Shown here: positions 32,998 through 43,085 of the stretch, one piece after another
How the letters are laid out: each line of letters starts with the position of its first letter
Position numbering within the stretch: position 1 is the stretch's first letter
From: Actinophytocola gossypii
GTDB taxonomy: Bacteria; Actinomycetota; Actinomycetes; Mycobacteriales; Pseudonocardiaceae
Assembly (NCBI RefSeq): GCF_025165815.1
Contig: NZ_JAFFZE010000029.1
Span: 1 to 64,000 of the forward strand
Reading direction: 5' to 3'
Length of the DNA stretch: 64,000 nt
Translations under genes and position numbers: made by a program
The notes under the pieces: model-generated
Databases searched by the model: none
Seen by the model: only the letters and a program-made list of their open reading frames with translations
Told to the model about the DNA's origin: nothing

Positions 32998-34326
32998 GTG
33001 ATCCCCATGACCTCCGCTCGAAGCGCCGTGGAACCCAGGGCGCTACGCCGTGCCTACGCCGCGAGCCTGTCCGGGACCGCGCTGGAGTACTACGACTTCG
33101 CGGCCTACTCGGTCGCCGCCGCCACGGTGTTCGGCGACCTGTTCTTCCCCTCCGGCGACGACCTGGTCGGCACGATGGCCGCGTTCTCCACCTACGCGGT
33201 CGGCTACCTCGCCCGCCCGCTCGGCGGGTTCGTGTTCGGCCGGCTCGGCGACGTGCTGGGACGCAAGAAGATCCTGGTCCACACGCTGCTGCTGGCCGGG
33301 ATCGCGACGTTCCTCATCGGCCTGCTGCCGACGCACGCGGCGATCGGCGGCCTGGCCGCGGTACTGCTGGTGCTGCTCCGGTTCGCCCAGGGCGTCGCGG
33401 TCGGCGGCGAGTGGGGCGGCGCGGTACTGCTGTCCAGCGAGTACGGCGATCCGCGCCGACGGGGTTTCTGGGCGTCGGCCGCGCAGATCGGACCACCGGC
33501 CGGCACGCTGCTCGCGAACGGCGTGCTGGCGCTGCTGTCCGGGACGATGTCGGAGGCGGCGTTCACCTCGTGGGGCTGGCGGATCGCGTTCCTGCTGTCG
33601 GCCGTGCTCGTCCTGTTCGGACTGTGGATCCGGCTGCGGCTTGAGGAGACGCCGGTGTTCCAGCGGATCGCCGACCGGGGCGAGCGGCCCAGCGCGCCGG
33701 TGTCCGAAGTGGTCACCACCGAGCGCAGGGCGCTGGCCGCCGGGATCCTCGTGCGGGTCTGCCCGGACGTGCTGTACTCGCTGTTCACCGTGTTCACGCT
33801 CACCTACATCACCCAGGAGCTGGACATGTCGCGCAGCGAGGGCTCCACCGCGGTGATGATCGGCTCGGCGTGCCAGCTGCTGCTGATGCCGGCGTTCGGC
33901 GCGCTGTCCGACCGGATGAACCGGCGCCTGCTCACCCTGGTCGGCACGATCGCGGCGGCGATCTGGCCGTTCCTGTTCTTCCCCATGCTCGGCGACGGCT
34001 CGTTCGGTCTGCTGGTGCTCGGCACCGTGGTGGCGCTGGCGATCCACGCGATGCTGTACGGCCCGCAGGCGGCGCTGCTCACCGAGCAGTTCTCGCCCCG
34101 GCTGCGCTACACCGGCTCGTCGCTGGCCTACACGCTCGCCGGCGTGATCGGCGGCGCGCCCGCGCCACTGATCCTGACCGCGCTGCTCGCGCTGGTCGGC
34201 AACTGGTGGATCCTGGGGGCGTACGTGGTGTTCAGCGCGGTGCTGACCGCGATCGGGCTGTGGCTCGCCCGCGACCCGGTGGTGGAGTCCGAAGAGGAGA
34301 CGACCCGTGAGGTGGCGACCACATGA
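32998..34326 (+). CDS. MFS transporter, metabolite:H+ symporter (MHS) family
   Basis: A 442-residue transporter with 12 predicted helices and the MHS signatures: GTALEYYDFAAY in helix 1, GRLGDVLGRKKIL after helix 2, and GEWGGAVLL. MHS members import organic acids, osmolytes and amino-acid derivatives by proton symport. The stop overlaps the most upstream start of pxpA (ATGA at 34323). With pxpA and pxpBC following, uptake of 5-oxoproline (pyroglutamate) or a related lactam is a reasonable inference. I use GTG 32998, preceded by GAGAG; ATG 33007 is possible. Confidence 0.9.
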   Translation: MIPMTSARSAVEPRALRRAYAASLSGTALEYYDFAAYSVAAATVFGDLFFPSGDDLVGTMAAFSTYAVGYLARPLGGFVFGRLGDVLGRKKILVHTLLLAGIATFLIGLLPTHAAIGGLAAVLLVLLRFAQGVAVGGEWGGAVLLSSEYGDPRRRGFWASAAQIGPPAGTLLANGVLALLSGTMSEAAFTSWGWRIAFLLSAVLVLFGLWIRLRLEETPVFQRIADRGERPSAPVSEVVTTERRALAAGILVRVCPDVLYSLFTVFTLTYITQELDMSRSEGSTAVMIGSACQLLLMPAFGALSDRMNRRLLTLVGTIAAAIWPFLFFPMLGDGSFGLLVLGTVVALAIHAMLYGPQAALLTEQFSPRLRYTGSSLAYTLAGVIGGAPAPLILTALLALVGNWWILGAYVVFSAVLTAIGLWLARDPVVESEEETTREVATT

Positions 34327-35234
34327 CTGACGACATGACACCATCTGTCCTCAACCCAACCCGCGCTGTCCCCAACCGCACCTCAGGGGAACGTGACGCA
34401 ACCCGGCCACAAGTACGTGACCAAACAGAACCTTTCGTCCCCCAAAGTGACCCCAACCAAAAAATCCGGGGAGGCGGAGAAGGCATCGACCTGAACTGTG
34501 ATGTGGCGGAGGGTTTCGGGGCCTGGCGCATCACCGACGACGACGCGCTGCTCGGCGTGGTGTCCAGCGCCAACATCGCGTGCGGCTTCCACGCCGGTGA
34601 CCCCGGGACGATGCGGCGGGCGTGCGAGACGGCGGTGCGCAACGGGGTGGCGATCGGCGCGCACGTCGGCTACCGGGACCTCGCCGGGTTCGGCCGGCGG
34701 TACGTCGACGTCCCGCCGGCGGAGCTGACCGACGACGTGCTGTACCAGCTCGGCGCGCTGCACGCGTTCGCGGCGGCGGCCGGTGGGTGGGTCGGCTACG
34801 TCAAGCCGCACGGCGCGCTGTACGGGACCATCGGCCGCGACGACGCCCAGGCGGGCGCGGTGGTCGAGGCGGTCCACCAGTTCGACGCGACGCTGCCGGT
34901 GCTCGGGCTGCCCGGATCGCGCTGGCTCGCGATCGCCGACAAGGCCGGGCTTCCCGTGGTGCGCGAGGCGTTCCTGGACCGCGGGTACACCCCGGACGGC
35001 CGGCTGGTGCCGCGCCGGTCGCCGGACGCGCTGCTGTCCGACCCGGCCGCGGTCGCGGAGCGGTGCGTGCGGCTGGCCGAGGCGGGCGAGATCGTCGCCG
35101 TCGACGGGACCGTGCTCACGGTCGACGCGCGGTCGGTGTGCGTGCACGGCGACACGCCTGGCGCGCTGGAGCTGGTCACGGCGGCCCGGGAGGCGCTGAC
35201 CGGGGCCGGGGTGACGGTGCGGAGCTTCGTGTGA
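34323..35234 (+). CDS. pxpA: 5-oxoprolinase subunit A (LamB/YcsF family)
   Basis: The protein from IDLNCDVAEGFGAW onward is a complete LamB/YcsF polypeptide of about 250 residues (NIACGFHAGDP, GVAIGAHVGYRDL, YVKPHGALY, EAFLDRGYTPDG). With PxpB and PxpC it converts 5-oxoproline to glutamate using ATP. The start is odd: the conserved N-terminus opens at an ATC (34485), 10 nt after GGGGAGG, and no ATG or GTG lies there. Reading from ATG 34323, which overlaps the transporter stop, adds about 54 non-conserved residues encoded by the repeat at 34397-34478. Whether translation uses that start, or a rare codon after the repeat's ribosome site, cannot be told. Confidence 0.88.
   Translation: MTDDMTPSVLNPTRAVPNRTSGERDATRPQVRDQTEPFVPQSDPNQKIRGGGEGIDLNCDVAEGFGAWRITDDDALLGVVSSANIACGFHAGDPGTMRRACETAVRNGVAIGAHVGYRDLAGFGRRYVDVPPAELTDDVLYQLGALHAFAAAAGGWVGYVKPHGALYGTIGRDDAQAGAVVEAVHQFDATLPVLGLPGSRWLAIADKAGLPVVREAFLDRGYTPDGRLVPRRSPDALLSDPAAVAERCVRLAEAGEIVAVDGTVLTVDARSVCVHGDTPGALELVTAAREALTGAGVTVRSFV
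34397..34478 (+). repeat. Dispersed 82-bp leader element, copy A
   Basis: Starts CGCAACCCGGCCACAAGTAC and ends ATCCGGGGAGGCGGA. The first 35 bp match copy B (56491-56571) at 32 positions and the last 15 bp match exactly; the middle differs. The 3' end supplies a Shine-Dalgarno sequence, and CCCGG near the 5' end could pair with CCGGG near the 3' end. It lies between the transporter stop and the conserved start of PxpA. It could be a small mobile repeat or a structured RNA leader; I do not recognise the family. Confidence 0.75.
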
Positions 35235-36754
35235 GGGTGCTGCCGTGCGGGGACGCGGCGCTGCTGCTCGACACCGAGGCGGCGCTCGGCCTGTACGCGG
35301 CGCTGGCGGACGCGCCGCCGGCCGGGGTCACCGATCTCGTGCCGGCGGCCAGCACGCTGCTGGTCCGGTTCGACCCGGCCGAGGTGTCCGCCGAGGAGCT
35401 GGCACGGGAGCTGGCGGCGGTCGAGCCGGTGTCCCGGGTGTCGGCGGCGGGCGAGCTGGTGGAGGTGCCGGTCCGCTACGACGGCGAGGACCTGGCTGAG
35501 GTGGCGGCGCGCACCGGGCTCGGCGTGGCCGGGGTGGTCGAGGCGCACGCGGCGCCGGAGTACGTGGTCGCGTTCTCCGGGTTCGCACCGGGTTTCGGCT
35601 ACCTGACCGGCCTGGACGACCGGCTGCGGCTGCCGAGGCGGGACACGCCCCGGGTGCGGGTGCCGGCCGGCTCGGTGGGGGTGGCCGGCGAGTTCACCGG
35701 GGTGTACCCGCGCTCCTCGCCGGGCGGCTGGCACCTGCTCGGCCGCACGACCGTGCCGCTGTGGGACGCCGGCCGGACGCCGCCGGCCCTGCTGCGCCCG
35801 GGCAACCGGGTGCGGTTCGTGCCGGTGGACTCCCTCGACCCCGCTCCTCCGTCCACTGTGGAGCGCCCGGAGCCGGCCGCGGGGATCGAGGTGGTCCGGT
35901 GTGGACCGCTGGCGACCGTGCAGGACCGGGGGCGGCCCGGCTTCGGCTCGATGGGGGTCGGCCGGTCCGGCGCCGCCGACGCGGGGGCGGCGGCGCTGGC
36001 GAACCGGCTGGTGGGCAACGCCGAGCACGCGGCGGTACTGGAGCTGACCCTCGGCGGCGCGACGCTCGTGTTCCGGGCCGCCACGCTGGTCGCGGTGACC
36101 GGCGCGCCGTGCCCGCTCGACCGCGACGGCCGGGCCGAGGCGCCGAACGCGCCGTTCACCGTGCCCGCGGGCGGTCGCCTGACGATCGGGGCGCCCGAGG
36201 TCGGCCTGCGCGGCTACGTCGCCGTCCGGGGTGGCGTCGCGGTGCCGCCGGTGCTCGGGTCCCGCGCCACGGATGTGCTCGCCGGCCTCGGCCCGGACGC
36301 GCTGTCGCCCGGCACCGTGCTCCCGGTCGGCACCGACCACGATGGACCGCCGCCGGCGGTCGAGGTGGCACCGGTGCCCGCGCTGGAGTCCGGCGACCTG
36401 GAGGTGCGGGTCGTCCCCGGCCCCCGCGCCGACTGGTTCACCCCCGACGCCCTGGACACCCTGCGCCGAGGACGGTACGTGGTCACCGCGGACAGCAACC
36501 GCGTCGGCCTCCGCCTGGACGGCCCCGCGCTCGCCCGGGCCAGGGACGGTGAGCTGCCCAGCGAGGGCATGGTGGCCGGCGCGATCCAGGTGCCGCCGTC
36601 CGGGCAGCCGGTGCTGTTCCTCGCCGACCACCCGGTCACCGGCGGCTACCCGGTGATCGGGGTGGTGCACACCCGCGACCTGGGGATCCTCGCCCAGGCC
36701 CGGCCCGGCCAGGCGGTCACCTTCCGGGTGGTTCAGCGGGCGGCGGCCCGGTAG
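35231..36754 (+). CDS. pxpB/pxpC: 5-oxoprolinase subunits B and C, fused
   Basis: A 507-residue fusion. Residues 1-205 are PxpB/KipI-like (VLPCGDAALLLD, FSGFAPGFGYLTGL, PRRDTPRVRVPAGSVGVAG), and residues about 215-507 are PxpC/KipA-like (VRCGPLATVQDRGRPGFGSMGVGRSGAAD, EGMVAGAIQVPPSGQPVLFL, DHPVTGGYPVIG). Together with PxpA it hydrolyses 5-oxoproline with ATP. Fusion of B and C is common in actinobacteria. The GTG start overlaps the pxpA stop (GTGA). Its 3' end overlaps the convergent GntR-FCD gene by 22 nt, which suggests that this regulator controls the operon. Confidence 0.93.
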   Translation: MRVLPCGDAALLLDTEAALGLYAALADAPPAGVTDLVPAASTLLVRFDPAEVSAEELARELAAVEPVSRVSAAGELVEVPVRYDGEDLAEVAARTGLGVAGVVEAHAAPEYVVAFSGFAPGFGYLTGLDDRLRLPRRDTPRVRVPAGSVGVAGEFTGVYPRSSPGGWHLLGRTTVPLWDAGRTPPALLRPGNRVRFVPVDSLDPAPPSTVERPEPAAGIEVVRCGPLATVQDRGRPGFGSMGVGRSGAADAGAAALANRLVGNAEHAAVLELTLGGATLVFRAATLVAVTGAPCPLDRDGRAEAPNAPFTVPAGGRLTIGAPEVGLRGYVAVRGGVAVPPVLGSRATDVLAGLGPDALSPGTVLPVGTDHDGPPPAVEVAPVPALESGDLEVRVVPGPRADWFTPDALDTLRRGRYVVTADSNRVGLRLDGPALARARDGELPSEGMVAGAIQVPPSGQPVLFLADHPVTGGYPVIGVVHTRDLGILAQARPGQAVTFRVVQRAAAR

Positions 36755-37413
36755 ACCGCGACGAGCTGGTGCTCGGAGTCGCTGAGGTAGGTGCGCAGGA
36801 GACGTTCCGCCTCGGGGCCGTCGCCGGTCTCGACGACGGCCAGGATCTCGCGGTTGCGCTCCAGGTACGGCTCGTGCAGGCCGCGGGGGTCGTTCACGGT
36901 GTGGAAGTGCAGGCGCAGCTCGGCGAGTACGCCGCGCATCAGGTCGTCCATCCTCGGACTGCCGGCCAGGGCGGTGATGGCCTGGTGGAACAGCATGTTC
37001 GCGGTGCCGAGGCCGCGCCAGTCCCGCGCACGCACCGCCTCGTCGCCCTGCGCGACCGCGGCCGCCATCGCCGACCCGTCCGGCGGTGCGGTCAGCTCGC
37101 GGACCACGCCGCACTCGAGCAGGGTGCGCAGCCGGTAGAGGTCGACCAGGTCGTCGAGCGTGAGCCGGCGGACGAACACGCCCCGGTTGAGCTCGTGCAC
37201 CAGCAGCCGCTCGTGGGTCAGCAGCCGGAACGCCTCCCGCACGGTGTTCCGGGAGACCTTGAGCGCGGTCCCGATCGAGTCCTCGGCGAGCCGCTCCCCC
37301 GGCGCGAAGAACCCCTCGGTGATCCGGGTGCGCAGCACGTCGGCCAGCCGCTCCACCGTGCTGGTCCGGCCGAGCAACCCCCGGTCGGCAGCGAGCTCCA
37401 GGTCCGCGCTCAC
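36733..37413 (-). CDS. GntR-family regulator with FCD ligand-binding domain (FadR type)
   Basis: A 226-residue regulator: N-terminal winged helix (VERLADVLRTRITEG, DSIGTALKVSRNTVREAFRLL) and an all-helical FCD domain (about 95-220) with the Asp/His metal-ligand pattern typical of carboxylate-sensing members (LVDLYRLRTLLE, FHQAITALAG, HFHTVN). GTG 37413 has GGGAG 4 nt upstream. It overlaps the end of pxpBC tail to tail and is divergent from the TIR operon. Regulation of the transporter-pxp operon is the likelier role; control of the TIR operon is possible. Confidence 0.9.
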   Translation of the reverse strand: MSADLELAADRGLLGRTSTVERLADVLRTRITEGFFAPGERLAEDSIGTALKVSRNTVREAFRLLTHERLLVHELNRGVFVRRLTLDDLVDLYRLRTLLECGVVRELTAPPDGSAMAAAVAQGDEAVRARDWRGLGTANMLFHQAITALAGSPRMDDLMRGVLAELRLHFHTVNDPRGLHEPYLERNREILAVVETGDGPEAERLLRTYLSDSEHQLVAVYRAAAR

Positions 37414-37671: not shown

Positions 37672-38220
37672 GTGACCAAGATATTCATCAACTACCGCAC
37701 GGCCGACGAACCCTACGGCGCAACGCTTCTTGATCAGGAACTGAGCCGGCACTTCGGCCGGGAAATGGTGTTCCGGGACGCCGAGTCCATTCCGCTGGGC
37801 GCCGACTTCGAGACCGAGATCATGGCCGCGGTTCGCGACTCGGACATTCTGCTCGCGGTCATCGGCCCGAACTGGCTGACCGCCGCCGACGCCGCAGGAA
37901 ATGTCCTGCTCGACAACGAGCGGGACTTCGTTCGCCGGGAGATCGCGACCGCGCTGGAGCACGGTGTCCGGGTGATCCCGGTGCTGATGAACGCCACCCG
38001 GATCGTGCCGGGCGCGCTGCCCGCCGACATCGCCGGGCTGGCCAGGTGCCAGGACGTCCGGGTGGACTTCCGGAACAGCACGTTCGACCTCGGGGCGCTG
38101 GTGGACCGGCTGCGCGAGCTCACCGGGAAGCCCATCCCGTCCCCCGAGCCCGAGCGCGCGACGATCAAGGCGCAGTTCAACGACCAGGTGACCGTCCAGC
38201 GTGACTTCGTCATCAACTGA
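37672..38220 (+). CDS. TIR-domain protein (putative NADase effector)
   Basis: A 182-residue protein that is nearly all TIR domain: KIFINYRTADEPYGATLL at the N-terminus, a VFRDAESIPLGADF loop, SDILLAVIGPNWL, and FVRREIATAL, whose Glu90 is the likely NAD-cleaving residue. Bacterial TIR domains cleave NAD+ or make cyclic ADP-ribose signals in antiphage and inter-bacterial defence. The last 16 residues (AQFNDQVTVQRDFVIN) form a short motif also seen near the N-terminus of the next protein. GTG 37672 follows GAAGGA. The 3' end overlaps the next gene by 20 nt. First gene of a four-gene operon; the defence role is inferred. Confidence 0.85.
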   Translation: MTKIFINYRTADEPYGATLLDQELSRHFGREMVFRDAESIPLGADFETEIMAAVRDSDILLAVIGPNWLTAADAAGNVLLDNERDFVRREIATALEHGVRVIPVLMNATRIVPGALPADIAGLARCQDVRVDFRNSTFDLGALVDRLRELTGKPIPSPEPERATIKAQFNDQVTVQRDFVIN

Positions 38221-40336
38221 GGCCGAGAAGCCGGCGGCGGAACCGGCGGCCGAGGAACAACCCGAGCCCCGCACCGCCGCGCCGAGCCAGGAGCAGGCGC
38301 TCTCCCAGCTGAAGGCCGACGTGGGCGAGCGCACCGACCACGCCAGGGCCAGAGAGATCACCTCCCGGCGGATGGACAAGGTGATCAACGCGGGCGCGGT
38401 CTTCAACGCGCCCGTGACGATCGCCGGCGACTTCGGCGTCGGCTGGCGGCCGCCGGCCGGCGCCACGTCGGGCGGGACACCCGTACCGGACGGACACTTC
38501 TACGAGCGGCTCCGCGGCTACGTCGAGGCACCCGGCTTCCGTGCCGCAGAGCGAGTCCTGCGCACCGGGCACCTGGTCGTACTGGCCGCGCCGAGCCGGA
38601 TCGGCCGCGAGACCACGGCGTTCAAGCTGCTCGACGGGCTCCTGCCCGGCGGGCGGCCGTCGGTGTTCGAGCTGCCGTCGACGATGCTGGGCAGCGCCGT
38701 GTGGCAGGTGCCGGCCGAGGGCGCCGGCTATGTCGTGCACGACCGCTCGCCGGCGAGCGTGCACCGCCGCACCTGCGCCGCGGACGCCGTCGACGACGCC
38801 TGGCTGACCAGGACCAGCGAACTGCTCAAGGCGGCCGGCAGCTTCCTCGTGGTGATCACCGGCGCGGTGGGCGGCCAACTCGCCGCGGCCACCCGGCGCG
38901 ACGAGTTCGTCATGCCGCACCTCGGACCGCCGGAACTGGCCGAGGTGGTCCGGAACCGGGTGCTGGTCAGCGGCATGGAGATCCATCCCGACGCGCTGGA
39001 CCGGCGGCTCGCCGAGCCCGAGGTGGCCGGCGTCCTCGCCGAGGTGCTGGCCGAGCGGCCCCATCCGAGCTTCGCCGTGCAGGTCGCCGACGCCGTGCTC
39101 GGCGCGCTGCGCGACCGGCGCGACCTGGCCGAGGCGCTGGAGTCGCTGCGCGAACCCGACGCGCAGGCCCGCGACTGGCTGGCCGGCGAGCTGCCGCCCG
39201 CGGAGGTGGCGTTCGCGCTGGCCACGGCGGTCCTTGAGGAGTCCAGCTACCTCACCGTGTCCGACGCGGCGGTGCGGCTCGCGCGCTCGTTCGTCGACGA
39301 GCTGGACGACGAGGCGCTGCGCTACCGCCGGGCACTCGTCGCCGACCACAGCTGGATCGAGCTGGCCCCGCCGGATCCCGACGGCGGGTCGGCGGTGCGC
39401 GAGGTGGTCCGGTTCCGCGGGCCGCGGCTGCAGCAGGCCGTGCTCAGCCACGCCTGGTACGAGCTCGACGGTATGCGGACGAAGATCCTCGCCTGGCTGG
39501 CGGACCTGGCCGGGCACTCCGACGTGGAGGTGCGGGCCAGGGCGGCGACCGCCGCCGGCATGCTGGCCGTGCTGGACTTCCAGCACGCGCTGCACCGCTA
39601 CCTGCTGCCCTGGGCGAAGAGCACGGACCCAGCCCGCCGGCACAGCGTGGCGATCGCGCTCGGCGTGGCCGGCCGGCTCGACCAGCACACCGAGCGGGTG
39701 TGGACGCTGCTCGACCAGTGGGCGGCCGACGTGTCCGACGAGGACAGCCGACTCCCGTCGACGGCCGCGCTGGCCGCCGGCGGGCCGCTCGGCCTGGCCG
39801 CGCCCGACCGGGCGGTGCGGCTGCTGCGCACGCTGGCGACCGAGGGGACCTGGGGGCTCCTCGAACCGGTGGTGCTCGGCGGCCTCGCGCTGGTCGAGGC
39901 CGGCCAGGCCGGGCGGGTGCTGCGGGCGCTGCTCGACTGGAGCGAGCCGCAGGACGACAGCGACCAGGTGGTCCGGGCGCTCACCGTGTTCGCCTACGCG
40001 CTCGGCGCCACCACCGACGGCGCCACCACGCCCGTGCTGCTGGCCGAGGCGCACCGGCACGCCGACGAGCTGCCCGAGCTGTGGGGCCGGGCGCTGTCCT
40101 GCCCGCCGGTGCGGCCGCTCGCGCTGGACGCGCTGCGGGACTGGCTGCGGGTGGCCGACCGCGATCCGGCCGCACACGAAGCCGTGTTGGACATCGTCGC
40201 GGGGATCGTGGACCGCGGTCCGACCGACCTGCGGCGCCTGCAACACCACCTGGAGCGGTGGGCCACCGACGAGGACGACCCGTCGCCGGCCGCCGCGCAC
40301 ATCTTCGATCAGCTCGCCGAGGCGGGAGAGGACTGA
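38201..40336 (+). CDS. STAND-like protein with degenerate P-loop and helical-repeat C-terminus
   Basis: A 711-residue protein. The N-terminal 60 residues are disordered, then the motif AVFNAPVTIAGDFGVG (66-81) mirrors the TIR C-terminus. At about 100-140 a segment typical of STAND NTPases appears (YVEAPGFRAAERVLRTGHLV), but the P-loop reads APSRIGRETT, with no Lys at the Walker A position, so ATP hydrolysis is doubtful. The rest is helical, with HEAT-like repeats in 440-690 (VEVRARAATAAGMLAVLDF, RRHSVAIALGVAGRL). It could be the sensor or scaffold that gathers the TIR effector. The GTG start overlaps the TIR gene; the family is not firmly recognised. Confidence 0.75.
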   Translation: MTSSSTEAEKPAAEPAAEEQPEPRTAAPSQEQALSQLKADVGERTDHARAREITSRRMDKVINAGAVFNAPVTIAGDFGVGWRPPAGATSGGTPVPDGHFYERLRGYVEAPGFRAAERVLRTGHLVVLAAPSRIGRETTAFKLLDGLLPGGRPSVFELPSTMLGSAVWQVPAEGAGYVVHDRSPASVHRRTCAADAVDDAWLTRTSELLKAAGSFLVVITGAVGGQLAAATRRDEFVMPHLGPPELAEVVRNRVLVSGMEIHPDALDRRLAEPEVAGVLAEVLAERPHPSFAVQVADAVLGALRDRRDLAEALESLREPDAQARDWLAGELPPAEVAFALATAVLEESSYLTVSDAAVRLARSFVDELDDEALRYRRALVADHSWIELAPPDPDGGSAVREVVRFRGPRLQQAVLSHAWYELDGMRTKILAWLADLAGHSDVEVRARAATAAGMLAVLDFQHALHRYLLPWAKSTDPARRHSVAIALGVAGRLDQHTERVWTLLDQWAADVSDEDSRLPSTAALAAGGPLGLAAPDRAVRLLRTLATEGTWGLLEPVVLGGLALVEAGQAGRVLRALLDWSEPQDDSDQVVRALTVFAYALGATTDGATTPVLLAEAHRHADELPELWGRALSCPPVRPLALDALRDWLRVADRDPAAHEAVLDIVAGIVDRGPTDLRRLQHHLERWATDEDDPSPAAAHIFDQLAEAGED

Positions 40337-40337
40337 C

Positions 40338-41273
40338 GTGCCGGAGCAGAAGACCTACGACCCGATCCTGGAGACCACCGAGCTGCCACGGCTGCGGCTC
40401 GGCGCGCTGACCCCGCCGAGGATGGGCACCGCCCTGGTGCTCGAGCCGGCGCGCGGCGAGCCGCTGGTGGTGCTGCCCGGCGAACGGGTGCCCGACCGCG
40501 TGTTCGGCAACTACCGCCGCTCGCACCTGGTCGACCTGGGGAACTACGGGCTGGAGCTGACGGTGGCGCTGCCCAGCCAGGACCCGTCGTTCCGGTTCGA
40601 CACCACGGTGTCGTTCAACTGCCAGGTGACGAACCCGGTGATGGTCACCACCAACAACATCCGGGACATGACCTCGGCCGTCCGGCCCCGGCTGGTCAAG
40701 ATCCTGCGCGCGGTGTCGCAGCGCTACGACGTGCTGGACGTGGCCGCGGCCGAGGCGGCGATGAACTCCGCGCTGGACCGGTACTACGGCAACTCGGCGG
40801 CGCGGCTCGGCGAGTTCACCGTCGAACTGGAGACGGGCGGGACGTCGGCGATCCACGAGGTGCGCCGGCAGGCGCGGCTGGGCGGCATGCGGCGCGGGGA
40901 CATGCGGCAGGTGGTCGATGGCGGCAAGAACGAGATGTTCGCGCAGTGGCTCGCGCTGCACGACGGCGATCCGGACGCGTTGTTCGCGCAGGAGGCCGAC
41001 GGCACCGAGCTGGAGCGGATGTTCCAGCTCGAGGCGATGCGGATGTACCTGTCCTCCGGCGACGACGTGGAGGCGTTCGACAAGAGCCGGGTGCGCGAGT
41101 ACATCGCCGAGCGGGTCCTCGGCGACAAGATGGGTCCGAAGCCGGACACCGGGAAGCGACTGTCCAGAAGGGACCGGATCCGCGCCTCGCTCGCCGCCGC
41201 GGATCAGGAGTCCGGAAAGGACACCCCGAAGGACGCACCGCCGGCCGTCGGTGAGCCGGAGGAGGATCGGTGA
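40338..41273 (+). CDS. SPFH/band-7-like domain protein
   Basis: A 311-residue protein. Residues about 50-190 follow the SPFH (stomatin/prohibitin/flotillin) pattern: FDTTVSFNCQVTNPVMVTT, then RPRLVKILRAVSQRYDVLD and AAAEAAMNSALDRYY, and a FTVELETGG strand. A charged helical region follows, and the C-terminus is basic then acidic. There is no transmembrane helix or obvious signal, so it would be cytoplasmic or peripheral. SPFH proteins assemble rings or scaffolds at membranes. It starts at GTG 40338 with GGGAGAGGA upstream, 1 nt after the previous stop. A scaffold in the candidate conflict system is inferred; similarity is by pattern only. Confidence 0.65.
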   Translation: MPEQKTYDPILETTELPRLRLGALTPPRMGTALVLEPARGEPLVVLPGERVPDRVFGNYRRSHLVDLGNYGLELTVALPSQDPSFRFDTTVSFNCQVTNPVMVTTNNIRDMTSAVRPRLVKILRAVSQRYDVLDVAAAEAAMNSALDRYYGNSAARLGEFTVELETGGTSAIHEVRRQARLGGMRRGDMRQVVDGGKNEMFAQWLALHDGDPDALFAQEADGTELERMFQLEAMRMYLSSGDDVEAFDKSRVREYIAERVLGDKMGPKPDTGKRLSRRDRIRASLAAADQESGKDTPKDAPPAVGEPEEDR

Positions 41274-41986
41274 CCGTTCCCCTGACGGTCTGGTCCTGCG
41301 CCGAGTGCGAGACGAACAACACGCTGGACTCGGCCGCCTGCCGGATCTGTGACGGCGATCGGACGGCGCTGTGCCGGGTGGTCGAGCCGCCCGTGCCGAT
41401 GCCGTGGCGGCAGCTCGAGCCCGATCAGCGGTTCGGCCCGTCCCGGGAAGCCGTGCGGGCGTTGGAACGCCCGTTCGGCGGCACCCCGCCGGACCGCGCA
41501 CCGGCCTCCCCGCCGGCACCGGCACCTCCGGCGAGCGACGGCGGGGTCCGCCGAGTCGTCGGCGTGTTGTCCGTGGTCGCCGCCGTCGGAGTCGGCGTGG
41601 CCCTGCTGGTCCAGCTGTTCGGCGGGCTGGCACCGGACGACGACGGAACCGCGCCGGCCGAGCCCGCCGGCGCCCCGGTCCCCTGCCCCGAGCCGGTGGC
41701 CCGGCACCTGCCGGAACCCGGTGCCACGCTGGTCGCCGCCTACCGGACCGACCGGCACCTGGTCACCCTCTGCCGGCTGCCGGGCGGCCAGGTGTTCTAC
41801 GACGGCCGGCGCAGGGGCCGGCCGGCGACGCCGGAGAACGTGATCTCGCTGCGGGCCGGCCAGCGGCCGGACGGCTGGCTGGCCCGCAACGGCGCCACCA
41901 CCTACCGGGTCACCGGGGACACGCTCGTGGTGTCCGACGGGAAGACCGTGCTCCTGCGGGACCGGCTGCGTCCGGTCACTCGGTGA
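41270..41986 (+). CDS. Membrane protein with N-terminal RanBP2-type zinc finger
   Basis: A 238-residue protein. Residues 8-27 read W-x-C-x2-C, then NN, and C-x2-C (Trp8, Cys10, Cys13, Cys24, Cys27), the RanBP2-type zinc-ribbon pattern. A Pro-rich linker, one transmembrane helix (about 93-115, VVGVLSVVAAVGVGVALLVQLF) and an outside domain of about 110 residues with two Cys follow. GTG 41270 overlaps the SPFH gene stop and has GGAGGAGG upstream. It is the last gene of the TIR operon and could anchor the complex at the membrane and bind nucleic acid or ubiquitin-like partners inside. Function not known. Confidence 0.78.
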   Translation: MTVPLTVWSCAECETNNTLDSAACRICDGDRTALCRVVEPPVPMPWRQLEPDQRFGPSREAVRALERPFGGTPPDRAPASPPAPAPPASDGGVRRVVGVLSVVAAVGVGVALLVQLFGGLAPDDDGTAPAEPAGAPVPCPEPVARHLPEPGATLVAAYRTDRHLVTLCRLPGGQVFYDGRRRGRPATPENVISLRAGQRPDGWLARNGATTYRVTGDTLVVSDGKTVLLRDRLRPVTR

Positions 41987-42332: not shown

Positions 42333-43085
42333 ATGAACGCCAGATCCGACGGAAAACCGGCGGTTCGCCCCTTCGGCACCGAACCGTCCGCCGGGCACCT
42401 CGAGATCATGCGTGTACTCGGGCGCTCGGAGCGCGCCACCAGCGTGGTCGACCAGATCCTGGTCTCGGTCGGCACGGCCATTGTGGAGTCCAGGCTGCAC
42501 CCGGGCGACGACCTGAACTCCGTCGAGTTGGCACGGATGTTCCAGAGCAGTCGCACCCCGGTCCGGGAGGCGTTGCTGACCCTGGAACGCGAGGGTTTGG
42601 TGGAGATCAACGCGCACCGCAGACCCAGGGTGCGGCGGCTGTCGCTGGACGAGGTGCGGGATATCTACGAGCTACGTTCCACGCTGTATGCATTGGTGAG
42701 CCGGCGTATTGTGGAGAATGCGACGGAATCCGAACTCGGCACGCTCCGGGACCTTCAACACCGGCTCGAACAAGCCGCCGACGCGGGCGATGTCGACCGG
42801 TACTTCTGGCTCAACGTCGACTTCCGGAACTACGAGGCGTCCATCGCGGGCAACCGCACGGTCCGCCGTGTGCTGGACGGCGTCGGCGTGCGGACCCTGC
42901 AGCTGCGGCACCTGAGCCTGTCGCTGCCCGGCCGGCTCGGCGCCTCGGTCGCCGACCACGAGCGGCTGCTGCGCGCCTACGAGGACCGCGACGCCGACCT
43001 GGCCTCGGCACTGACCCAGACGCTCGTGCGCCGTGGCCTCGCGGCCATCGAGACCTCTGGCTGGACGGGGCGCGGCGACTCCTAG
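42333..43085 (+). CDS. GntR-family regulator with FCD domain
   Basis: A 250-residue regulator: winged helix (ATSVVDQILVSVGTAIVES, NSVELARMFQSSRTPVREALLTL) and a helical FCD ligand domain (LDEVRDIYELRSTLYALVSRRI, FWLNVDFRNYEASIAGN, ASVADHERLLRAYEDRD). FCD domains commonly bind small carboxylates through a metal site. The ATG at 42333 is used; ATG 42408 (MRVLGRSERATS) is a shorter alternative. Two small membrane-protein genes follow within 11 nt and are candidate targets. The signal is unknown. Confidence 0.88.
   Translation: MNARSDGKPAVRPFGTEPSAGHLEIMRVLGRSERATSVVDQILVSVGTAIVESRLHPGDDLNSVELARMFQSSRTPVREALLTLEREGLVEINAHRRPRVRRLSLDEVRDIYELRSTLYALVSRRIVENATESELGTLRDLQHRLEQAADAGDVDRYFWLNVDFRNYEASIAGNRTVRRVLDGVGVRTLQLRHLSLSLPGRLGASVADHERLLRAYEDRDADLASALTQTLVRRGLAAIETSGWTGRGDS

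Follow-up and report, generated by a model that had tools for sequence, protein, structure and literature searches.

What does a tightly packed set of four genes for a TIR protein, a STAND-like protein, an SPFH protein, and a zinc-ribbon membrane protein do in an actinomycete, and is this set a unit of its own or one version of a larger system? The genes in question lie at 37672-41986 in a stretch of 64,000 nucleotides (nt) of Actinophytocola gossypii DNA (assembly GCF_025165815.1, contig NZ_JAFFZE010000029.1, forward strand, positions 1-64,000), the full length of which we refer to as the window. A preliminary description proposed that they form a candidate immune system. Based on a comparison with related loci, we conclude that effector, STAND, and SPFH genes constitute a real, conserved, and modular signaling system, and that the four genes in the window are its TIR version. 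The role of this system is probably in defense or in stress signaling.

The conserved effector-STAND-SPFH unit and its variable effector slot

The same four open reading frames (ORFs) (Table 1) were chosen by a purpose-written codon-model gene caller. Genes 1 and 2 overlap by 20 nt, genes 2 and 3 are separated by 1 nt, and genes 3 and 4 overlap by GTGA, exactly as in the preliminary description.

Table 1. Features of the operon and of its borders (positions in the window)
Feature	Position	Strand	Remarks
Gene 1: stand-alone TIR protein (effector)	37672..38220	+	182 amino acids (aa), GTG start; TIR domain at residues 4-134
TIR tail motif	38170..38217	+	Gene 1 residues 167-182, AQFNDQVTVQRDFVIN, C-terminal end
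Gene 2: STAND-like NTPase with HEAT-type repeats at the C-terminus	38201..40336	+	711 aa
Matching motif of gene 2	38396..38443	+	Residues 66-81, AVFNAPVTIAGDFGVG, between helix and NTPase core
Walker-A-like stretch of gene 2	38585..38614	+	Residues 129-138, AAPSRIGRET, Arg136 at the Lys position
Gene 3: SPFH (Band 7) protein without transmembrane segment	40338..41273	+	311 aa; SPFH core followed by helices
Gene 4: zinc ribbon at the N-terminus, one transmembrane segment	41270..41986	+	238 aa; transmembrane segment at about residues 92-122
GntR/FCD regulator, divergent	36733..37413	-	Left border of the variable site, not a system member
GntR/FCD regulator	42444..43085	+	Right border of the variable site, not a system member

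Gene 3 had matches at E<=1e-3 in 66 of 390 genomes of the host's family, the host itself counted, and 24 of the 66 reached E<=1e-25. At the level of the order, its profile had matches in 27 of 298 genomes; at the level of the phylum, gene 2 had matches in 9 of 396. A search of plasmid DNA gave no match, and a first scan of genome contigs with gene 3 gave 28 pattern matches, none of which was a relative. Named relatives are Lentzea, Amycolatopsis, Goodfellowiella, Actinokineospora, and Actinomadura. From the 75 gene 3 places outside the window, we took 40 regions, plus one later (G251); the gene 2 matches in G810 and G841 are not among the wider regions taken. Genes in these relatives were called with a simple caller of our own, which can miss or shorten genes (gene 3 of L038 was missed). 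The STAND threshold was set at 40 bits, by which L109 has no STAND gene, while L114 has no STAND or SPFH gene by our own profiles; duplicates from genomes already counted (L071-L075 and L077) were excluded from the counts. The resulting 47 STAND loci include the window as well as some near-copies.

Because the regions were found through gene 3, the presence of an SPFH gene in them is selected; adjacency and order are not. A gene 2 homologue lies directly upstream of the gene 3 match in 32 of the 40 regions, and the other 8 (L033, L046-L050, L066, and L069) have an SPFH gene without a called STAND gene. Seven loci that were found through gene 2 and were not already in the set pass the STAND threshold (L076, L078, L111, L112, L113, L115, and L118), and SPFH is the next gene in 6 of them. 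Altogether, SPFH lies directly downstream of STAND in 46 of the 47 loci (44 of 46 by hidden Markov model, plus the window, plus L038 by tblastn), the sole exception being L118, a second locus of the same genome. A recognized effector lies upstream of STAND in 46 loci, and effector and SPFH both flank STAND in 45. The order of genes is, therefore, conserved beyond chance. The exact four-gene set of the preliminary description had to be rejected as the conserved unit: the order TIR-STAND-SPFH-transmembrane protein is found in only 4 of the 47 loci (the window, L041, L053, and L055), and among the latter three, a zinc ribbon is present in L055 only.

Many relatives carry additional genes. A complete triad of PP2C, kinase, and vWA genes is present in 18 of the 47 loci, directly downstream in 16 and upstream in 2 (L067 and L110), and a partial triad in 3 (L038, L064, and L106); in L043, PP2C_2, Pkinase, and VWA all score above the Pfam cut-off.

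The same-strand gene upstream of STAND encodes a TIR protein in 21 loci, a nucleotide-cyclase homologue in 22, and another protein in 4. The latter comprise two BTAD regulators in Actinomadura (L078 by Pfam; L076 by look and cluster label), a nucleoside phosphorylase in L103 (PNP_UDP_1, 4e-19), and, in L104, an unrelated-looking nearest gene 958 bases away. Pfam found no family at E<=0.1 in the two cyclase-type effectors searched; the cyclase-type profile matches the solved cyclases 5d0g (4.2e-4) and 3mr7 (4.4e-3), and, of the class III cyclase pattern, the homologues keep two Asp and the Arg in 9 of 9 aligned sequences and the Asn in 8 of 9. Some of them (L060) have an N-terminal BTAD region, and many are directly preceded by a Crp gene (the Crp of L047 has cNMP-binding and HTH_Crp domains by Pfam). 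When mapped onto the STAND tree, the labels TIR and cyclase require 4 changes, and well-supported branches force 3 of these; a second tree was made without the long branches of L118 and L115.

Several loci depart from this layout. In L047-L050, SPFH relatives of gene 3 lie near a Crp regulator, and no STAND gene was called there; the SPFH family may serve another purpose in these loci. L107:6450-9005 (- strand) and L117:7554-10133 (+ strand) each encode a single protein of ~850 aa in which our own profiles recognize both TIR and SPFH, and that of L107 has a C-terminal CHAT domain by Pfam (5.2e-21). At L064:3169-4920 and L106:7977-9932, SPFH is fused to a TerY-like vWA region (own profiles), a direct link between scaffold and triad. 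A family of ~320 aa proteins (cluster c7; e.g., L036:2466-3503 and L033:6668-7636) occurs in 13 of the first 40 loci, has no Pfam match above the cut-off in two members, and persists at the operon's genomic site in the same-genus genomes G004 and G005.

Identities of the four proteins

Only the TIR_2 match of gene 1 exceeds its Pfam cut-off; the matches of genes 2, 3, and 4 (nSTAND3, Band_7, and Zn_ribbon_RanBP) are all below theirs, and their identities therefore require other evidence.

Gene 1 matches TIR_2 with E=3.3e-12 (47.4 bits; cut-off, 28). All 18 aligned TIR proteins have Glu90, and the TIR family profile matches the SARM1 TIR domain (E=3.4e-8), with Glu90 aligned to the catalytic glutamate of SARM1 in its DWVHKE stretch. 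As judged from these alignments, gene 1 encodes a TIR protein carrying a SARM1-type glutamate, for which NADase activity is predicted; the stand-alone TIR protein with a putative catalytic Glu of the preliminary description is borne out. Thoeris likewise uses a stand-alone TIR effector. A Thoeris identity was rejected: no ThsB-type model scored above its cut-off, the Thoeris model ThcB4 gave 24.9 bits against a cut-off of 220, and the operon has no ThsA.

Gene 2 has sub-threshold matches to nSTAND3 (E=0.058; 13.5 bits against a cut-off of 27.2) and HEAT_2 (E=1.6e-3). In its AlphaFold2 model (predicted local distance difference test [pLDDT], 81.6; predicted template modeling score [pTM], 0.73), an alpha/beta region is followed by helical repeats. 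In the PDB, Foldseek found no more than two matches at E<=1e-3, to SAMD9 (5.1e-5) and an NLRP14-UHRF1 entry (5.9e-4), with template modeling (TM) scores of <0.2; SAMD9 and NLRP14 are STAND proteins. The lower ranks are mostly HEAT/ARM-type repeat proteins, with an AVAST5 filament at 0.018, and PDB sequence-profile searches with genes 2 and 3 found nothing credible. Because the TM-scores are low and the sequence profiles gave nothing credible, we consider gene 2 a likely, not a secure, STAND protein, on the basis of fold (weakly) and family alignment. The earlier assignment of a large STAND-like protein thus has the family alignment and weak fold matches on its side and no profile match above the cut-off. 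The reported loss of the P-loop lysine was confirmed (Arg136). Among 35 members of the gene 2 family, 27 have Arg at this position, 6 have Lys, and 2 have Gln. Because Arg predominates, the family alignment indicates that it is a feature of the lineage rather than local decay, and the idea that the lost lysine marks a local pseudogene was rejected.

Gene 3 scores under the Pfam cut-off for Band_7 (E=0.11; 12.9 bits against 23.6), and its AlphaFold2 model has a pLDDT of 72.1 and a pTM of 0.49. All entries at Foldseek ranks 1-34 are of SPFH proteins, the best being human prohibitin (4.4e-7), followed by HflK/C, stomatin, QmcA, and flotillin. In total, 24 matches reach E<=1e-3, and rank 24 is a stomatin-aquaporin complex. 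Normalized by query length, the TM-scores at ranks 1-34 are 0.21-0.39; rank 38, an isolated SPFH domain, has a TM-score of up to 0.67 when normalized by target length. Based on the model, gene 3 has the SPFH fold, so that the SPFH-like call holds by structure and not by Pfam profile. Proteins of the prohibitin and HflK/C types have an N-terminal transmembrane anchor. Gene 3 has no such anchor and no transmembrane segment (maximal KD19, 0.82).

The match of gene 4 to Zn_ribbon_RanBP is sub-threshold in Pfam (E=0.043). Hydropathy indicates one transmembrane segment, and two cysteines (139 and 168) in the C-terminal domain beyond it are present in 15 of 15 aligned sequences. Six of these 15, the window included, have the CxxC...CxxC ribbon, with some starts possibly truncated by the gene caller. 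Hence, the zinc-finger membrane protein of the preliminary description is upheld for the transmembrane segment and the cysteine pattern and lacks a Pfam match above threshold. The same description proposed that genes 3 and 4 assemble a complex at the membrane. As gene 3 has no transmembrane segment, only gene 4 could tie such a complex to the membrane.

Proposed mechanism and matched tail motifs

We favor, at slightly better than an even chance, that the system is a STAND-gated TIR signalosome, in which the STAND protein acts as a switch that draws TIR NADase molecules together on an SPFH scaffold through homotypic contact with their tails. The STAND protein would open in response to a trigger that its repeats sense or that gene 4 passes on, and its exposed N-terminal motif would template the TIR tails by homotypic, perhaps amyloid-type, contact. 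The gathered TIR domains would then cleave NAD+ or make an NAD-derived signal, while SPFH assemblies would hold the complex and gene 4 would tie it to the membrane. In the fuller relatives, the PP2C-kinase-vWA triad would add control by phosphorylation; the window operon would act without it. The outcome is most likely abortive defense or stress-induced dormancy. Defense is the likeliest role, and an immune function is plausible.

Alternatively, the system may be regulatory rather than suicidal: the effector slot would make a signal or control transcription under envelope or developmental stress, with defense incidental, and the output would be the TIR product, a cyclic nucleotide read by the adjacent Crp, or a BTAD activator. 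This possibility, which we regard as real and nonetheless unlikely, draws on the Crp genes directly upstream of many cyclase versions, on the conserved Asp, Arg, and Asn residues of the cyclase homologues, and on the domain of gene 4 beyond the membrane with its invariant cysteine pair. Moreover, because BTAD regulators occupy the effector slot in the two Actinomadura loci, some versions of the system may end in gene regulation. The window operon, however, has a TIR gene with the conserved SARM1-type glutamate and no adjoining Crp or cyclase gene.

The strongest mechanistic clue to a STAND-gated TIR signalosome, which is absent from the preliminary description, is a pair of matched motifs at the C-terminal end of the TIR protein and near the N-terminus of gene 2 (Table 1). 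The gene 2 motif lies inside a stretch (residues 65-89) with a pLDDT of <50 in the AlphaFold2 model and is probably flexible. Scored against gene 2 residues 56-90, the window TIR tail is equaled by 12 of 20,000 shuffled tails. To compare loci, we used the last 45 residues of the effector and STAND residues 6-140 (discovery set) or 1-140 (later), sizes that were set after seeing the discovery set. L064 was excluded from the discovery test on account of its uncertain STAND start and included later; the short second TIR protein L055_9 was excluded. In the discovery set (n=32), the mean local score was 38.3 for cognate pairs vs 27.7 for permuted pairs (standard deviation [SD], 1.4; 0 of 10,000 permutations reached the cognate mean) and 24.3 for shuffled tails. 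A later-fetched set (n=14), which was seen before testing and on which no parameter was tuned, gave 48.6 vs 27.7 (SD, 2.9; 0/10,000), and the cognate partner ranked first in 8 of the 14 loci. For the cyclase-type loci only (n=15), 0 of 10,000 permutations reached the observed mean. By these scores, the match between tail and N-terminus is real for the set and often weak in the single case. At the level of the family, the loci thus have the paired motif by which bacterial NOD-like receptor (NLR) amyloid signalosomes are recognized, i.e., at the effector C-terminus and the STAND N-terminus of adjacent genes.

Could the tail match reflect shared ancestry or composition only, with the STAND protein acting by folded-domain contact? 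The weakness of many single matches and the coarse clade groups speak for this explanation, which we consider improbable. Shuffled tails score well below cognate ones, as given above, and the signal survives both the removal of near-copies (10 excluded) and permutation only within five STAND clades (n=37; 40.3 vs 29.8; SD, 1.8; 0/10,000). By clade, the observed value was reached by 1 of 10,000 permutations in the window's clade (16 loci), by 109 in the second (6 loci), and by 0 in the third (11 loci); two clades of two loci are too small to tell. The signal also persists where TIR gives way to unrelated domains. The tail of the window TIR protein is similar to those of the cyclase homologues at L032 and L034, two loci from its own STAND clade (FNDQVTVQRDFVIN and FAGPVTAHRDFVIN; 0 of 20,000 shuffles, for a pair chosen after inspection), and the nucleoside phosphorylase of L103 and the TIR protein of L118 match their own STAND partners with scores of 53 and 109, both ranking first. 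Because tails are alike or matched across exchanges of the enzyme domain, they seem to stay with the locus rather than follow the enzyme. L103 has a parallel in the fungal amyloid motifs that are linked to PNP_UDP effectors (PMC12261475). The pair at L118:5774-9578 (G000 contig 13) is a second TIR-STAND pair of the same genome with a different, strongly matched tail, and a 379 aa membrane protein replaces SPFH there.

Several observations weigh against a STAND-gated TIR signalosome. When scored against the whole of gene 2, the window TIR tail is equaled by 22 of 5,000 shuffled tails. Only 8 of the 32 discovery loci have the cognate partner in first place, and the window's is second; the cognate partner is not first in 6 of the 14 later loci (L076, L078, L104, L112, L115, and L116), and it is first in 11 of the 37 loci without near-copies. 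The weakest of the subset tests is that on TIR loci only (n=18), in which 24 of 10,000 permutations do as well as the observed pairs. The replacement of the P-loop lysine of gene 2 by arginine casts doubt on classical ATP-driven switching, and the BTAD regulators in the effector slot point to gene regulation as the output of some versions. Amyloid formation, NADase activity, the STAND-TIR contact, and the trigger are predicted steps, and the binding of the SPFH protein or of gene 4 to the other proteins is putative. Finally, the expected location near other defense genes found no support: PADLOC gave no credible defense match among 10 flanking window proteins, the one partial match being a beta-galactosidase, and the immune role suggested in the preliminary description is plausible without backing from the neighborhood.

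Genomic site and relation to known systems

The window STAND protein falls into a clade of 22 rows (support, 100/100), 14 of which have the triad, and its nearest relative, L043 (49% identity), has the triad as well. The window operon lacks it. PP2C and vWA queries from L043 found nothing in the host genome (a weak negative, as no positive control was run), and the kinase query found only weak kinase matches (best, 4.1e-8). Based on these comparisons, the window operon is a reduced form of a longer system. Because triad-less TIR-STAND-SPFH forms recur on the STAND tree, including one clade of four (support, 99/99), the reduced four-gene form seems viable.

The operon lies between two GntR genes and beside LamB_YcsF and carboxyltransferase genes. 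At this site, the same-genus genomes G004 and G005 have, of the four genes, a short SPFH ORF alone (164 and 190 aa), plus two neighbors; G003 has the GntR pair and none of the four genes in its gene table; and G001 and G002 have the left-hand metabolic genes. Neither these two nor G003 has a gene 3 match. As compared across these genomes, the site is variable, as expected of an accessory system. The window genes at 33007-36754 encode a major facilitator superfamily transporter, LamB_YcsF, and carboxyltransferase proteins; G001, G002, and G003 have counterparts of them at this site.

The lack of PP2C and vWA matches and the remains or absence of the operon in the same-genus genomes would also fit a decaying remnant, in which loss of the triad has left a non-functional or partly functional operon. 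The four ORFs are, however, intact and tightly coupled, with key residues conserved, and the recurrence of triad-less forms argues in the same direction; we give this explanation little credence.

How does the system compare with described ones? Bacterial NLR amyloid signalosomes carry a motif at the effector C-terminus and the NLR N-terminus, encoded in adjacent genes, with TIR as a less frequent effector (PMC7889193, PMC8086366). These bacterial amyloid signaling sequence (BASS) signalosomes share with the present loci the adjacent effector and NLR/STAND genes, the matched short motif, and TIR as a possible effector (PMC7889193, PMC8086366). In contrast, the present system has an SPFH third gene, a transmembrane fourth gene, and a TerY-P-like triad in relatives, and its effector is not a BELL domain. 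TerY-P triads occur with restriction systems, and TerY-P-like modules are stand-alone antiphage systems (PMC11090510). Their combination of vWA, PP2C, and Ser/Thr kinase genes is that of the 18 triad-bearing STAND loci (PMC11090510); unlike there, the triad is absent from the window and in relatives lies beside STAND, SPFH, and a variable effector.

Actinobacterial conflict systems include Band-7 domains, cyclase/TIR alternatives, and kinase-PP2C-vWA sets (PMC7159879). Among them, the MoxR-vWA ternary, iSTAND, and GAP1-N2 systems resemble ours in being actinobacterial and multigene, with cyclic nucleotide monophosphate (cNMP) cyclase/TIR alternatives and Band-7 scaffolds, and in adaptors that, as has been proposed, match effector to core through homotypic contact; some GAP1-N2 systems also have the kinase-PP2C-vWA set (PMC7159879). 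They differ in that neither MoxR, VMAP, nor GAP1 components are among the Pfam matches of the four genes or the 10 flanking proteins, and in that coupling here would be by a short motif and not by a folded adaptor domain. A search restricted to open-licence papers, seen in excerpt and thus weak evidence of absence, gave no description of effector-STAND-SPFH with or without the triad. By analogy, the system would work like the described bacterial NLR amyloid signalosomes, with parts not found combined in the literature searched.

The shoulder of the vault protein resembles SPFH domains, and PARP4 contains a vWA domain. The eukaryotic RNA vault with TEP1 contains a TIR-like NADase with STAND-type architecture inside a large protein shell, according to a recent preprint (PMC13174449). 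With TEP1 and PARP4 counted, the vault and the present system have TIR-like NADase, STAND, SPFH-like shell, and vWA in common, a resemblance of parts lists only. It is, thus, a distant prospect that the system is a bacterial vault-like NADase particle, in which TIR is housed in an SPFH shell and controlled by a STAND protein, and to which the full form adds vWA, kinase, and phosphatase as regulators. Equally speculative is that a short tail that matches itself would let such a particle accept different cargoes, so that TIR, cyclase, phosphorylase, and transcription regulators could each be plugged in. The best 50 of the 307 Foldseek matches of gene 3 include no vault entry.

The effector-STAND-SPFH system joins TIR immunity, STAND switches, SPFH scaffolds, and TerY-P-type phospho-control, which usually occur apart. 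Its matched tails predict that receptor-effector specificity resides in about 16 residues that are transferable between unrelated enzymes. If this is true, the system would offer a bacterial model of amyloid-type immune signaling with interchangeable outputs and, possibly, a bacterial counterpart of scaffolded NADase machines.

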